A stretch of DNA of 64,000 nt from Aestuariirhabdus litorea (GTDB lineage Bacteria > Pseudomonadota > Gammaproteobacteria > Pseudomonadales > Aestuariirhabdaceae), in NCBI RefSeq assembly GCF_003864255.1, contig NZ_QWEZ01000002.1, positions 930,001 to 994,000 on the forward strand, in the 5' to 3' direction. Positions 30,957-35,731 of this stretch are shown in pieces. Both the position numbers and the translations under genes were made by a program. The notes below the pieces were generated by a model that worked only from the letters and a program-made list of their open reading frames with translations, searched no databases and was not told the origin of the DNA. Position 1 is the stretch's first letter. Each line of letters starts with the position of its first letter.

Positions 30957-31316
30957 TTAGTCTGCCCGCAGGGCAATGCGCCGGGCTTTGGGTAACCCCT
31001 TAACGACCAGCTCGAAGGAGAGATCGAACAGGCGCATCAGCTCACCCCGTGGCACCGATCCGTCGAGGGTGATGGTGTTCCAGTGTTTCTTGTTCATGTG
31101 GTAGCCGGGTTGGATGGCATCGAACAGATCTCGCAGCGCGAGGGATTGCATCGGCTCACATTTGAGGTTGATGCGTAAAGGGTTCTGGTCGGGGTCGAAC
31201 AGGGCAAATACTTTTTCGGCGACCTTAAACACCCGCACCTGAGGGCCGAAGGGGTAGTCCACATAGGCCCCCGGTTTGGCGAGCAGGTAGTTGGTTACCT
31301 CGGTAGACGTTTGCAT
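30957..31316 (-). CDS. MmcQ/YjbR family DNA-binding-fold protein
   Basis: A 119-residue protein of the MmcQ/YjbR family. YPFGPQVRVFKVAEKVFAL and HMNKKHWNTITLDGSVP are diagnostic. These proteins adopt a double-wing DNA-binding-like fold; function unknown. ATG 31316 (MQTSTEV) is chosen since it matches family length; upstream ATGs at 31361 and 31370 would add residues with no family match. Confidence 0.87.
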   Translation of the reverse strand: MQTSTEVTNYLLAKPGAYVDYPFGPQVRVFKVAEKVFALFDPDQNPLRINLKCEPMQSLALRDLFDAIQPGYHMNKKHWNTITLDGSVPRGELMRLFDLSFELVVKGLPKARRIALRAD

Positions 31317-31513
31317 GCTGACTCTGGCCTCGTGAACGGAGTGGCACCTGGGCAGGGGCATTGACTCCAAGGGTAGCCGGGGGCGGTGATGGGGAGCAAG
31401 TTTGCAGGAGCGAGCTACACTTTCGGAGCGGTGTTAAGCGATCGAAAAGGGCGTTATTTAGGGGAGCCCCAGCAGGTTCGTTGAGTGCGGGCCGAAGCCG
31501 AATCATGGAAAAG

Positions 31514-31527
31514 GTGATGTACATCAT
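31514..31527 (+). promoter_or_regulatory. FNR-like site upstream of frdABCD
   Basis: GTGAT-GTAC-ATCAT matches the FNR consensus TTGAT-N4-ATCAA in 8 of 10 positions and contains a perfect 12-base palindrome. It lies 62 bases before the frdA start codon. A site for an FNR/Anr-type oxygen sensor would suit fumarate reductase. Confidence 0.5.
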
Positions 31528-31589
31528 CCATTTGAGGCTGGCGTAGGTGCATGATGGGGCTTTCTCGGGCATGGAGGGCTGGAGCGAGT

Positions 31590-33383
31590 ATGAATCACAT
31601 AGAAGCGGATGTGTTGGTTATTGGTGCGGGTGGCGGTGGGCTAAGGGCGGCCATTGCGATCGCCGAGAGCGCCCCCGACCTGAGTGTTGCCTTGATCTCG
31701 AAAGTCTACCCGATGCGCAGCCATACGGTAGCGGCCGAAGGGGGCGCGGCCGGGGTGGTGCAAGACCATGACAGTTTCGAATACCACTTTAACGATACGG
31801 TGTCCGGTGCCGACTGGCTGGCGGACCAGGATGTGGTGGAGTTTTTTGTCGAGCAGTGTCCCAAGGAGATGCTGCGGCTAGAGCACTGGGGGTGCCCCTG
31901 GAGCCGGCGCGAGGATGGCCGGATCAACGTACGAGCCTTTGGCGGGATGAAGATAGAGCGCACCTGGTTTGCCGCTGACAAGACCGGCTTCCACATTTTG
32001 CATACGCTCTTCCAGACCTCCATCAAGTATCCGTCAATCAAGCGTTTTGATGAGTATTTTTGCACCGACCTGCTGGTGGATGAGGGCCGGGTTCAGGGGG
32101 TGTTGGCGGTTGATATTGCCAACGGTACCTTTACCCGTTTTCTCGGGCGTTCGGTGGTCATGGCCACCGGCGGGGCTGGCCGGGTGTACCGCTTCAATAC
32201 CAATGGCGGTATTGTCACCGGTGATGGTATGGCGCTCGCCTACCGGGCCGGAGCGCCGCTGCGGGATATGGAGTTTGTGCAGTACCACCCAACTGGCTTG
32301 CCCGGTACCGGAATACTGATGACCGAGGGGTGCCGTGGTGAGGGGGGAATTCTCACCAATCGCGACGGTTACCGCTATCTGCAGGACTATGAGTTGGGAC
32401 CTGAAACGCCGATCGGCCAGCCCCGTAACAAGACCATGGAGCTGGGGCCGCGGGATCGCCTGAGCCAGGCCTTCTGGCACGAAGAGCAGAAGGGGCGGGT
32501 GATCGAAACCTCTCGCGGTACCGCGGTTAACCTGGACCTGCGTCACCTGGGTGCCCAGAAGATCAATGAACGACTGCCCTTTATCCGCGAGCTGGCCAGC
32601 GCCTATCTGGGCATCGACCCCGTCAAGGAGCCGATCCCGGTGCGGCCAACGGTGCACTACACCATGGGGGGGATTGGCACCGATATCCGTGCGCAAACCC
32701 AGCTTCCCGGCCTCTATGCTGTGGGCGAATGCGCCAGCTCGGGGCTGCATGGAGCGAACCGGTTAGGGTCGAACTCCCTGGCCGAGCTTTGCGTGATGGG
32801 ACGGGTGGCCGGTGAGCAGGCCGCCCGGCATGCAAGGGATTCCGGGGCCGTTGATAAGGCACGCATAACCGCCCTGTCCGAGGCGAAAGCCGAGCGGTGG
32901 ATGGCCCTTCGAACCCAAAAAGGCAGCGAAAACCCCGCTCATATCCGGCGTGACCTTGCGGATACGATGGAGGCCGGGGTGGGTATTTACCGGAGCCAGG
33001 AGGGAGTACAGAAAACCTGTGATGCCATTGCTGAGCTTAAACAGCGCTATGAAAAAATAGGCCTTAATGATGGCAGCTCGGTCTTTAATACGGAGTGGCT
33101 GTATGCCATTGAGCTCGGCTTTTTGCTGGATATTGGCGAGGTTATGTCACATTCCGCGCTAATGCGCAAAGAGTCGAGGGGGTCGCATCAGCGGCTGGAC
33201 GAGTTCAATACACGGGATGATGTGAACTATCTTAAGCACTCCCTGGCTTACCGGCAGCAGGACACAGGCCCGCTTATCAAATACCAGGATGTAGTGATCA
33301 CCAAATCGGCGCCGGCAGCGCGTCTGTACGGGGAGGCTGCTGAGCGCAAGGAGTCAGCGCAGGAGGGCAAAGATGGCCAATAA
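31590..33383 (+). CDS. frdA: Fumarate reductase flavoprotein subunit
   Basis: A 597-residue flavoprotein, catalytic subunit of quinol:fumarate reductase. The dinucleotide motif is [10 protein letters not shown] (residues 12-21), the FAD-attached histidine is His45 in [10 protein letters not shown], and substrate residues lie in [22 protein letters not shown] and [14 protein letters not shown]. Text and domain order follow enterobacterial FrdA rather than SdhA. ATG 31590 is the start that matches FrdA. The end overlaps frdB by 11 bases. Confidence 0.95.
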
Positions 33384-34131
33384 CAAATCAATGAGCCTAA
33401 GCGTTCAACGCTATCGGCCTGAGCTGGATGCTGAGCCCTGGTGGCAGGAGTTTAGCGTGCCCTATAACGAGGACACGTCGGTTCTTGAAGCGCTTCAGTT
33501 TATCAAGGACGAGCTGGATTCAAGCCTGAGCTTTCGCTGGTCTTGCCGAATGGCGATCTGTGGAAGCTGCGGCTTTATGGTGAACGATGTCCCCAGACTC
33601 GGGTGCAAGACCTTTTTGCGGGATTACTCGTCGCTGAGGATTGCTGCACTGGATAACTTTCCCATTGAGCGGGACCTGGTGGCCGATATCGCCAGCTTTG
33701 TCGGCAAGCTCGAAGAGGTCAAACCCTATCTTTTCCGCCATGACCCTAAAGAGATGGATACCTCGGTGCCGGTGGAGGAGGAGTATCTGCAAACACCGCA
33801 GCAGGTGTCGCTGTATAAGCAGTTTTCCCAGTGCATCAATTGCGGGCTGTGCTATGCGGCTTGTCCGCAGTTTGGGCGCAACCCGGAGTTCCTGGGTCCT
33901 GCGGCCCTGACCCTGGCGTATCGCTATCTGCGAGACTCGCGGGATCAGGGTGAGGAGGAGCGGATGCCGATGCTTAACTCGGAGCAGGGAGTATGGAGCT
34001 GCACCTTCGTTGGCTATTGCTCGGAAGTCTGTCCCAAACATGTTGACCCGGCAGCGGCGATCAATCAGGGCAAGGCGATGAGTGCGCTGGACTACGTTAA
34101 GCAGGTGTTACCGAAGGGAGGTGACCAATGA
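33373..34131 (+). CDS. frdB: Fumarate reductase iron-sulfur subunit
   Basis: A 252-residue subunit that carries electrons from the membrane anchor to FrdA. The [2Fe-2S] ligands are Cys58, Cys63, Cys66 and Cys78 ([11 protein letters not shown]). The [12 protein letters not shown] motif holds the [4Fe-4S] cluster and [12 protein letters not shown] the [3Fe-4S] cluster. The ATG lies inside the frdA end, and the stop overlaps frdC in ATGA. Confidence 0.95.
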
Positions 34132-34547
34132 TCTCTGAGCACAATACCAACGCGGTGAACCGGCGGCCCTATGTGCGCAAACAATCGGCAGGATGGTGGC
34201 TCGATAAACAGTACTATTTCCTGTACATGCTGCGCGAGGGAACGTCCCTGGTACTGGCTGTCTACGCCATTATGCTGGCGACAGGGGTGATGCGCCTGAT
34301 TCAGGGGCCGTTGGCCTGGCAGGGCTGGGTCGAGACCGTGACCAGCTCGCTGGCGATCCCTTTGCACCTGCTGATGCTGGTGGCCCTGTTTTACCATACC
34401 CTGACCTGGTTTCGCCTGGCTCCGCGTATTGTGGTGATTCGGGTGGGCGGTAAGGCGCTCGACCCTGTACTGGTTGAGCGTGGCCACTGGGTGGCCTGTG
34501 TCGTAACCACCCTGTTGCTGATGTTGTTGTGGGGAGGTGCACAATGA
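34128..34547 (+). CDS. frdC: Fumarate reductase membrane subunit C
   Basis: A 139-residue membrane anchor with three predicted helices. [13 protein letters not shown] at the N-terminus matches enterobacterial FrdC; together with FrdD it binds menaquinol and fixes FrdAB to the cytoplasmic face. Overlaps frdB and frdD by four bases each (ATGA). Confidence 0.93.
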
Positions 34548-34906
34548 AATCGAATTACGTGCGTTCAAACGAGCCTATCGTCTGGAGCCTGTTCGGCGCC
34601 GGCGGCATGGTTGCGGCCTTTTTGCTGCCTGCTGTGGTGCTGATGTTAGGGGTGGCGACACCGCTGGGCTGGGTCAGTGCTGATGTGATCAGTTATCACA
34701 ATGTGATGCTGTTTGCGTCATCCTGGCTGGGTAAGCTGCTGCTGATGGTGGTGATCTGCCTACCGCTCTATCACGCGGCCCACCGCATTCACCACGGCCT
34801 GGTGGATCTGCACCTGCATTTGCCCCATACGCTGTCGCTATTGATCTTCTATGGGGGTAGCACCCTGGTCACCCTGGCGGTGGGCTATTGGCTGCTGCTT
34901 ATCTAG
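34544..34906 (+). CDS. frdD: Fumarate reductase membrane subunit D
   Basis: A 120-residue anchor with three predicted helices. RSNEPIVWSLFGAGGM and HRIHHGLVDLHLH are typical of FrdD. ATG 34544 overlaps the frdC stop; the operon frdABCD is thus fully overlapping. The presence of C and D without haem-ligand histidines of SdhC/D supports the Frd rather than Sdh call. Confidence 0.93.
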   Translation: MKSNYVRSNEPIVWSLFGAGGMVAAFLLPAVVLMLGVATPLGWVSADVISYHNVMLFASSWLGKLLLMVVICLPLYHAAHRIHHGLVDLHLHLPHTLSLLIFYGGSTLVTLAVGYWLLLI

Positions 34907-34948: not shown

Positions 34949-35731
34949 GTGAAGCTGGATATCAACGAGCTGGTCCGCAAAAGCGGGGAGGGGGAGTCCC
35001 TGTTGGCAACGGTGGTTGATGGCAATGGCCGGGTTGAGGTGCACCAGTCGGACAGGGTGCGATGGCTGTATGTGGGTGATAACTCGCTGCTATCGTTGAT
35101 GAGCCTGGCATTTCCTGAGCGCATTGAGCTGGCCTATCAGGTGGCGATGCTGGGTGCGCTGGCGGTGCGGCCCTTACCGGGGCGCGTACTGGACCTGGGG
35201 CTGGGGGGCGGTGCCTTCGCCCGCTTTTTCCAGCGTTGGTTTCCCGATGCCCGGATGCTTTCCGTCGAGCGCAGCCCGGTTATGGTCGACCTCGCGCGTC
35301 GCTATTTTGGGTTGCCTGAGAGCTCTGAGGTGGAGGTGTGCTCTGCCGAAAGTTTTATTGAAAAGGATAAGCGGAACTGGGATCTGGTGCTCTGTGACCT
35401 GTTTGAGGGGGAGTGCCAGAGCCCGCTACTCGAGCAGAGAAGCTTTTATCGTGGCCTCGCGTGCCGGCTGGCGCCGGGTGGGGTGTTGGCGATCAACCTG
35501 ATGCCAAAAACCAATGCCCAACTGTTCTCGGTGCTGCTTACCCTGCGCAGCTTCCTGCCCCATATAGCCCTCATTGAGGTGCCAGGCTGCGGCAATATCG
35601 TATTGCTCGCGTCTCGAGAGGGGTTTTCTCCTGCGGAGGATAGCCCGCTTAAAGGGTTGCCGGCAGAGGTGGAGGCAGAGCTCTGTGCTCAGCTTGACCG
35701 CCTACAGTTCATACCGCTGCCTGGTGTATGA
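34949..35731 (+). CDS. Spermidine synthase-like SAM-fold protein
   Basis: A 260-residue protein with a class I methyltransferase fold. RVLDLGLGGGAFARFF is the nucleotide-binding motif I, MLSVERSPVMVDLARRYF motif II, and WDLVLCDLFEGE resembles the polyamine-synthase acid motif. It looks like the spermine/spermidine synthase-like family, but the catalytic Asp-rich loop is changed (CDLF), so aminopropyl transfer is not assured. The start is GTG, 42 bases after frdD, with no terminator between. Confidence 0.75.
   Translation: MKLDINELVRKSGEGESLLATVVDGNGRVEVHQSDRVRWLYVGDNSLLSLMSLAFPERIELAYQVAMLGALAVRPLPGRVLDLGLGGGAFARFFQRWFPDARMLSVERSPVMVDLARRYFGLPESSEVEVCSAESFIEKDKRNWDLVLCDLFEGECQSPLLEQRSFYRGLACRLAPGGVLAINLMPKTNAQLFSVLLTLRSFLPHIALIEVPGCGNIVLLASREGFSPAEDSPLKGLPAEVEAELCAQLDRLQFIPLPGV

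Follow-up and report, generated by a model that had tools for sequence, protein, structure and literature searches.

The genome of Aestuariirhabdus litorea carries a set of genes resembling the fumarate reductase operon of E. coli, which raises the question of whether the enzyme serves fumarate respiration, what controls and supplies it, and how it came to be present in this species. The window analysed here is a stretch of 64 kb within the 3.66-Mb genome (hereafter G000); the family is represented by three genomes (G000, G001 and G002) belonging to a single genus. We consider it highly probable that the genes serve a menaquinol-dependent fumarate respiration activated by FNR, which the ancestor of the genus possessed and which one species has lost together with menaquinone synthesis. 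The enzyme itself is ordinary and of a known type; its coupling with the menaquinone (men) genes is the interesting part, and the co-occurrence and co-absence of the two in a small genus adds a useful twist.

The frd operon and its products

The features of the locus are as follows.

30957..31370, minus strand: YjbR/MmcQ-family gene, flanking frd on the left, retained in the frd-less congener G001
31514..31527, plus strand: FNR-like site GTGATgtacATCAT, 8/10 to TTGATnnnnATCAA; same-position site in four relatives, one of them decayed
31550..31555, plus strand: -10-like hexamer CATGAT, 4/6 to TATAAT; same offset in 5/5 clade loci
31590..33383, plus strand: frdA, fumarate reductase flavoprotein subunit, 597 aa (profile models, alignment with E. 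coli)
33373..34131, plus strand: frdB, iron-sulphur subunit, 252 aa (profile models, alignment with E. coli)
34128..34547, plus strand: frdC, membrane anchor, 139 aa (profile models, alignment with E. coli)
34544..34906, plus strand: frdD, membrane anchor, 120 aa (profile models, alignment with E. coli)
34949..35731, plus strand: spermidine-synthase-like/methyltransferase gene, right flank, outside the complex, retained in G001

The operon is complete on the plus strand (31590-34906), as judged from the open reading frames and profile models. The start of frdA was placed at 31590, the protein aligning with E. coli FrdA from residue 1; an alternative in-frame ATG further upstream (31551) falls within the -10-like hexamer and was rejected. 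All the joints overlap, by 11 bases between frdA and frdB and by 4 bases each between frdB and frdC and between frdC and frdD. A preliminary description had spoken of an E. coli-type fumarate reductase with fully overlapping genes; the overlaps stand, but in E. coli only frdA and frdB overlap and the remaining joints are 10-base gaps.

The assignment of the operon to the E. coli type was confirmed by the family models, with FrdA, FrdB and FrdD exceeding the NCBIfam cut-offs for fumarate reductase and FrdC that of Pfam. FrdA scores 984 bits against a cut-off of 933 (TIGR01176) and 1049 against 854 (NF006686), and stays below the succinate dehydrogenase model sdhA_forward (577 of 727). FrdB scores 395 against 333 bits (NF009051) and also clears a succinate dehydrogenase subfamily model, NF004616, at a lower score (247 against 228). 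The operon encodes two membrane anchors of the Frd type: FrdC matches PF02300 with 129 bits (Pfam cut-off 24) and reaches 108 of the 143 bits required by NCBIfam, while FrdD matches PF02313 with 127 bits and reaches 126 against an NCBIfam cut-off of 60.

The four subunits occur in the same order as in E. coli FrdABCD (PDB 1KF6), with identities of 65.0, 60.5, 35.2 and 39.8% for FrdA, FrdB, FrdC and FrdD, respectively, and among sequences of solved structure FrdA and FrdC come closest to the E. coli Frd chains. Flavin, active-site, Fe-S and quinol-site residues are the same as in E. coli at all the positions checked in the alignment, including the active-site His, Glu and Arg residues, the Fe-S cysteines and a Lys of FrdB, the Arg-Glu and His of FrdC and the Trp of FrdD. 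FrdA keeps the His and Glu of SHTVAAEGG, whereas the SdhA of G000 carries Gln at the position of this Glu, which here separates FrdA from SdhA. Neither epmA nor ampC adjoins the operon in the window, a difference from the E. coli locus. A separate sdh locus elsewhere in G000 encodes SdhA, SdhB and two Sdh_cyt anchors (confirming sdhCD). Since the family and the residues are of the Frd type and a separate sdh locus carries Gln in SdhA, frdABCD encodes a further complex II besides Sdh, one of the Frd kind, and the operon is predicted to encode a membrane-bound quinol:fumarate reductase as in E. coli; the earlier proposal of a dedicated fumarate reductase is thus supported.

The region upstream of frdA and its candidate regulators

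The preliminary description had drawn attention to an 8 of 10 match to the FNR consensus upstream of the operon, and a recount of GTGATgtacATCAT against TTGATnnnnATCAA agrees. Sites of equal quality (8/10) number 27 in the 64-kb window against 11.0 expected, so the match alone is no evidence. The centre of the site lies at about -41.5 relative to a putative transcription start near 31562, and CATGAT begins 29.5 bases downstream of the centre, the spacing between site and -10 hexamer of class II FNR promoters. The probability in shuffles of such a site at -95..-65 of frdA is 0.011, for a range that, like the hexamer offset, was fixed after the window site had been seen.

Comparison with other frd loci is more informative in this respect. 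The four nearest relatives each have a comparable site that begins 74-86 bases upstream of frdA (GTGATTCATATCAA in G344, ATGATTCATATCAA in G319, ATGACGCATATCAA in G204 and the decayed GTGTCATAGATCAA in G002). The mismatches in the -95..-65 range are 2 for the window, 3 for G002, 1 for G344, 1 for G319 and 2 for G204, a sum matched by 0/5000 shuffle sets; the G002 site by itself is equalled or bettered in 0.21 of the shuffles. Each of the five loci also has a hexamer matching TATAAT at 4/6 positions, and its distance from the site is identical throughout. Of the regions preceding frd in 105 loci, 21 contain a site with no more than 1 mismatch between -300 and the start, against about 3 in shuffles, and 6 have one at -95..-65 against 0.24 expected, the regions being non-independent in both counts. 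In the Halieaceae and G041, which belong to the same FrdA clade, no upstream site better than 4 mismatches was found, and a generic sigma-70 scan upstream of frdA predicted no promoter. The arrangement of site and hexamer fits a class II FNR-activated promoter, the site being good in four loci and weak in G002.

An FNR (L134) is encoded in G000, with 53% identity to E. coli FNR, the four cluster cysteines and a near-identical recognition helix. The other CRP/FNR-family members of the genome are a second FNR-like protein with cysteines and two CRP/DNR-like proteins without them. E. coli FrdABCD likewise has an FNR site upstream, and there FNR acts at a poorer site, TCGATctcgTCAAA, listed at -45.5 (PMC3688515); that of the window is nearer the consensus, with 8 against 6 of 10 positions. 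The conservation of site and spacing among the relatives and the presence of an FNR with four cysteines favour the FNR-type control suggested earlier, and frdABCD is apparently FNR-activated. The best FNR-like match upstream of menF has 3 mismatches in G000 and 2 in G002.

Phylogeny of the reductase and the state of both loci in the genus

FrdA and FrdB trees were inferred quickly, without bootstrap and with long branches flagged, from 74 of 105 rows; 31 near duplicates (Vibrio, Photobacterium, Photorhabdus, Proteus, Serratia and other enterics) were removed by hand. The relatives named are from the best 80 matches of a contig profile search and represent a biased sample. FrdA of the window groups with those of G002, G344, G319, G204, G041 and two Halieaceae (Kineobactrum sediminis, L069, and UBA5044, L051) with an SH-aLRT of 99, and the same eight members group for FrdB (96.8). 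Within this clade FrdA and FrdB of G000 and G002 are mutual nearest rows, and flanking genes are shared with G002 only (loci compared by tblastn or read).

An enterobacterial-type operon, perhaps gained by transfer, had been proposed; the grouping of FrdA and FrdB with members of the order speaks against it, and a grouping of FrdA with 17 enterobacterial rows was rejected (p-AU 7e-6). Family f7 comes next after G001 in RpoB similarity, but placing the genus with it was also rejected (FrdA, p 2e-65; FrdB, p 4e-4). The groups in these tests were chosen with the tree already in view, against which the rule of the test warns. All the 27 FrdA rows of the order as one clade gave a borderline result (p 0.043), with which one early arrival of the gene in the order followed by many losses would be compatible. 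An RpoB sequence was available from 28 of 30 genomes (none from G344 and G083), and since the nearest neighbours by FrdA and RpoB disagree, an older exchange between lineages inside the order is likely, or else deep losses.

The frd operon occupies the same place in two of the three congeners. A genome search found no frdA in G001, where the locus runs from YjbR through a DUF3299 gene into the spermidine-synthase-like gene, followed by the same further genes; the DUF3299 gene (L160) thus occupies the frd position. In G002, a single 6.3-kb contig carries the first part of a DUF945 gene, then a shortened DUF3299, then frdABCD, and last the terminal part of the downstream gene of the window; the shortened copy lies directly upstream of frdA (L110:1980-2270). 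This contig is linked to its neighbours only through near-identical ends, with 90% identity across 394 positions on one side and 96% across 150 on the other, and it may come from a close strain variant in the assembly, with the gene order preserved on one piece.

G001 is nearer to G000, with 94.3% identity in RpoB. The RpoB contig of G002 (L176, G002:C156) is only 78.7% identical to that of G000 and groups with other families; it is probably contamination of the assembly, and as it looks foreign for a member of the same genus, G002 was placed by its flank proteins. These are 76-90% identical to G000 in G001 and 73-83% in G002, leaving aside the fast-evolving DUF945 (51% and 39%, respectively).

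The menaquinone genes follow the same pattern. MenD (TIGR00173) exceeds the cut-off in G000 and G002, while G001 has below-cut-off look-alikes only. The menFDBCE cluster lies between gmk and yicC in G000 and downstream of gmk in G002; in G001 gmk and yicC are adjacent, with no men genes between them. In the G000 cluster menD and menC are over the cut-off, menF is over that of the isochorismate synthase subfamily and below that of MenF, menE has menE as its best match below the cut-off, and menB is 86% identical to a G002 protein clearing the menB cut-off. The cluster adjoins a low-GC stretch (0.448; L144:14280-19001) before yicC, which contains a transposase-like gene, named by eye.

Both frd and men are thus present in G000 and G002, and both loci are empty in G001, with conserved flanks. 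Because G001 is closer to G000 than G002 is, the simplest account is that both loci were ancestral to the genus and were lost together in G001. The gain in the window species suggested earlier is likewise countered by the shared position of frd in two congeners and by a frd-less genome nearer to G000, for which a loss is simpler.

The prenylation step is the weak link of the menaquinone reading, with only a below-cut-off candidate for MenA. MenA exceeds the cut-off in 6 of the 18 genomes tested, and in none of G000, G002 and the four f7 genomes among them. The candidate in G000, a UbiA-family gene beside sucCD, reaches 59 of 102 bits for TIGR00751 and 111 of 264 for NF004751. In G000 and G001 it is the third gene of this family and, below the cut-off, the one that most resembles MenA; in G002 there are five such genes, of which it is one. 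The gene is kept beside sucCD in all three congeners (L237, L239 and L236), including the men-less G001, and its retention there argues for another function or for a loss that lags behind. A UbiA-family gene also adjoins sucD in three f7 genomes (L240, L241 and L232).

Association of frd with menaquinone genes in the order

The presence of frdA was called at E <= 1e-200 across 390 genomes of 142 genera of the order. It was found in 24 genomes and 14 genera, which bears out the earlier remark that such an Frd is uncommon in relatives; G001 offers the matching gene neighbourhood without frd. MenD occurs in 30 genomes and 16 genera, and in 20 of the 24 genomes with frd, against 1.8 genomes expected for the joint occurrence (10 genera against 1.6), counts that are uncorrected for kinship. 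Four genomes have frd without menD (G041, G092 and G160, each at least 99% complete, and G344, 54% complete), and ten have menD without frd. The three near-complete relatives with frd but without menD are counter-examples of note; in G041 and G092 (L115 and L116) frdABCD is present as such, and in G160 a MenA-like UbiA-family gene, below the cut-offs, lies directly upstream of frdA (L122:8597-11314).

On the reading we favour, a fall in oxygen would allow FNR to regain its iron-sulphur cluster and to bind at 31514-31527 as a class II activator beside RNA polymerase, switching on frdABCD. The menFDBCE cluster at the second locus would provide menaquinol or demethylmenaquinol, from which electrons would pass to Frd for the reduction of fumarate to succinate, while SdhCDAB would serve the aerobic direction. 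Enzyme and low-potential quinone would then form one functional module at two loci, together in two species and absent together in the third. The sequences themselves show the gene content, the residues, the conservation of site and spacing, the FNR cysteines and the joint presence or absence of the two loci; promoter use, the identity of the quinone, the catalytic direction and the sequence of losses are inferred from these. Counting against this reading are the MenA candidate below the cut-off, the decayed G002 site, the lack of a comparable site in the Halieaceae and G041, the three near-complete genomes with frd alone, the ten with menD alone, the weak site before menF and the extra CRP/FNR-family proteins.

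The men genes are described as having spread by transfer, with 825 of the 871 Men occurrences falling in five other gammaproteobacterial orders, and a joint gain of fumarate reductase was suggested as something to look for (PMC11707229). The same source reports the futalosine pathway in no Pseudomonadota and rhodoquinone in one gammaproteobacterial species. The frd/men pattern fits, at the scale of a genus, the expectation of a linked gain. The genus represents a small natural experiment, and as frd and men are both present in one and both missing from the other of two close species, the flanks being clean, the menaquinone dependence of fumarate respiration could be tested by simple gene deletions.

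The history of the two loci could also be one of recent horizontal gain, frd (and men) having been acquired separately by A. litorea and G002 with G001 in the original state. Such a course would agree with the patchy distribution of frd and menD in the order, the reported transfer of men clusters in Pseudomonadota (PMC11707229), the low-GC border of the G000 men cluster with its transposase-like gene and the conflict between FrdA and RpoB neighbours. It would, however, require each of the two loci to have received its insertion twice, once in G000 and once in G002, whose FrdA and FrdB are nearest to each other; the DUF3299 gene of G001 and its shortened counterpart in G002 indicate a shared ancestral neighbourhood, and the GC content of frd (0.586, window mean 0.618, sd 0.024) gives no sign of recent transfer into the window species. 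We regard separate gains as unlikely.

Two further alternatives concern function. Binding of the frdA site by another CRP/FNR-family protein, DNR-like or CRP, would make the operon answer to nitric oxide or carbon supply; in its favour, the genome encodes four proteins of this family, of which two lack the N-terminal cysteines, and the outer bases of the site deviate from the FNR consensus. The sites of G344, G319 and G204 are nevertheless at or nearer TTGAT-N4-ATCAA (1, 1 and 2 mismatches), the class II spacing is maintained and in E. coli an even poorer frdA site suffices for FNR (PMC3688515), which leaves this a quite improbable explanation. That the complex is mainly a succinate dehydrogenase or a ubiquinone redox valve, rather than an anaerobic terminal reductase, would be in keeping with the uncertain MenA and with the relatives having frd without menD; set against the separate sdh locus, the Glu retained in FrdA, the strong frd-menD association and the FNR-type promoter before frdA, we find it very improbable.

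The closest coupling of the two gene sets was observed in family f36, where both the genomes with frd, G329 (L120:296-14175) and G073 (L121:3502-17244), carry frdABCD embedded in a complete men operon. The order is menF, menD, menH, a divergent DASS transporter, frdABCD, menB, menC and menE, with a divergent menA at the far end. The enzyme and the quinone pathway are the same as in the window genome; the difference is that frdABCD lies between menH and menB at one locus, with the DASS-type transporter and menA, while in the window genome frd and men are at separate loci, and the f36 FrdA forms a separate, long branch in the tree. In a scan of 104 frd loci, for which the available flanks were in part short (only 1.5 kb for many loci from this order), a men set was found at the two f36 loci only, and two further loci have weak menB-like matches only. 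No paper on a men-frd operon was found in the open-licence PMC literature. Whether frd and men constitute one evolutionary unit in the order, mostly at separate loci but co-gained, co-lost, fused in one family and co-deleted in one species of the genus, is in our judgement evenly balanced. The frame of the DASS-type transporter is broken in the G073 sequence.
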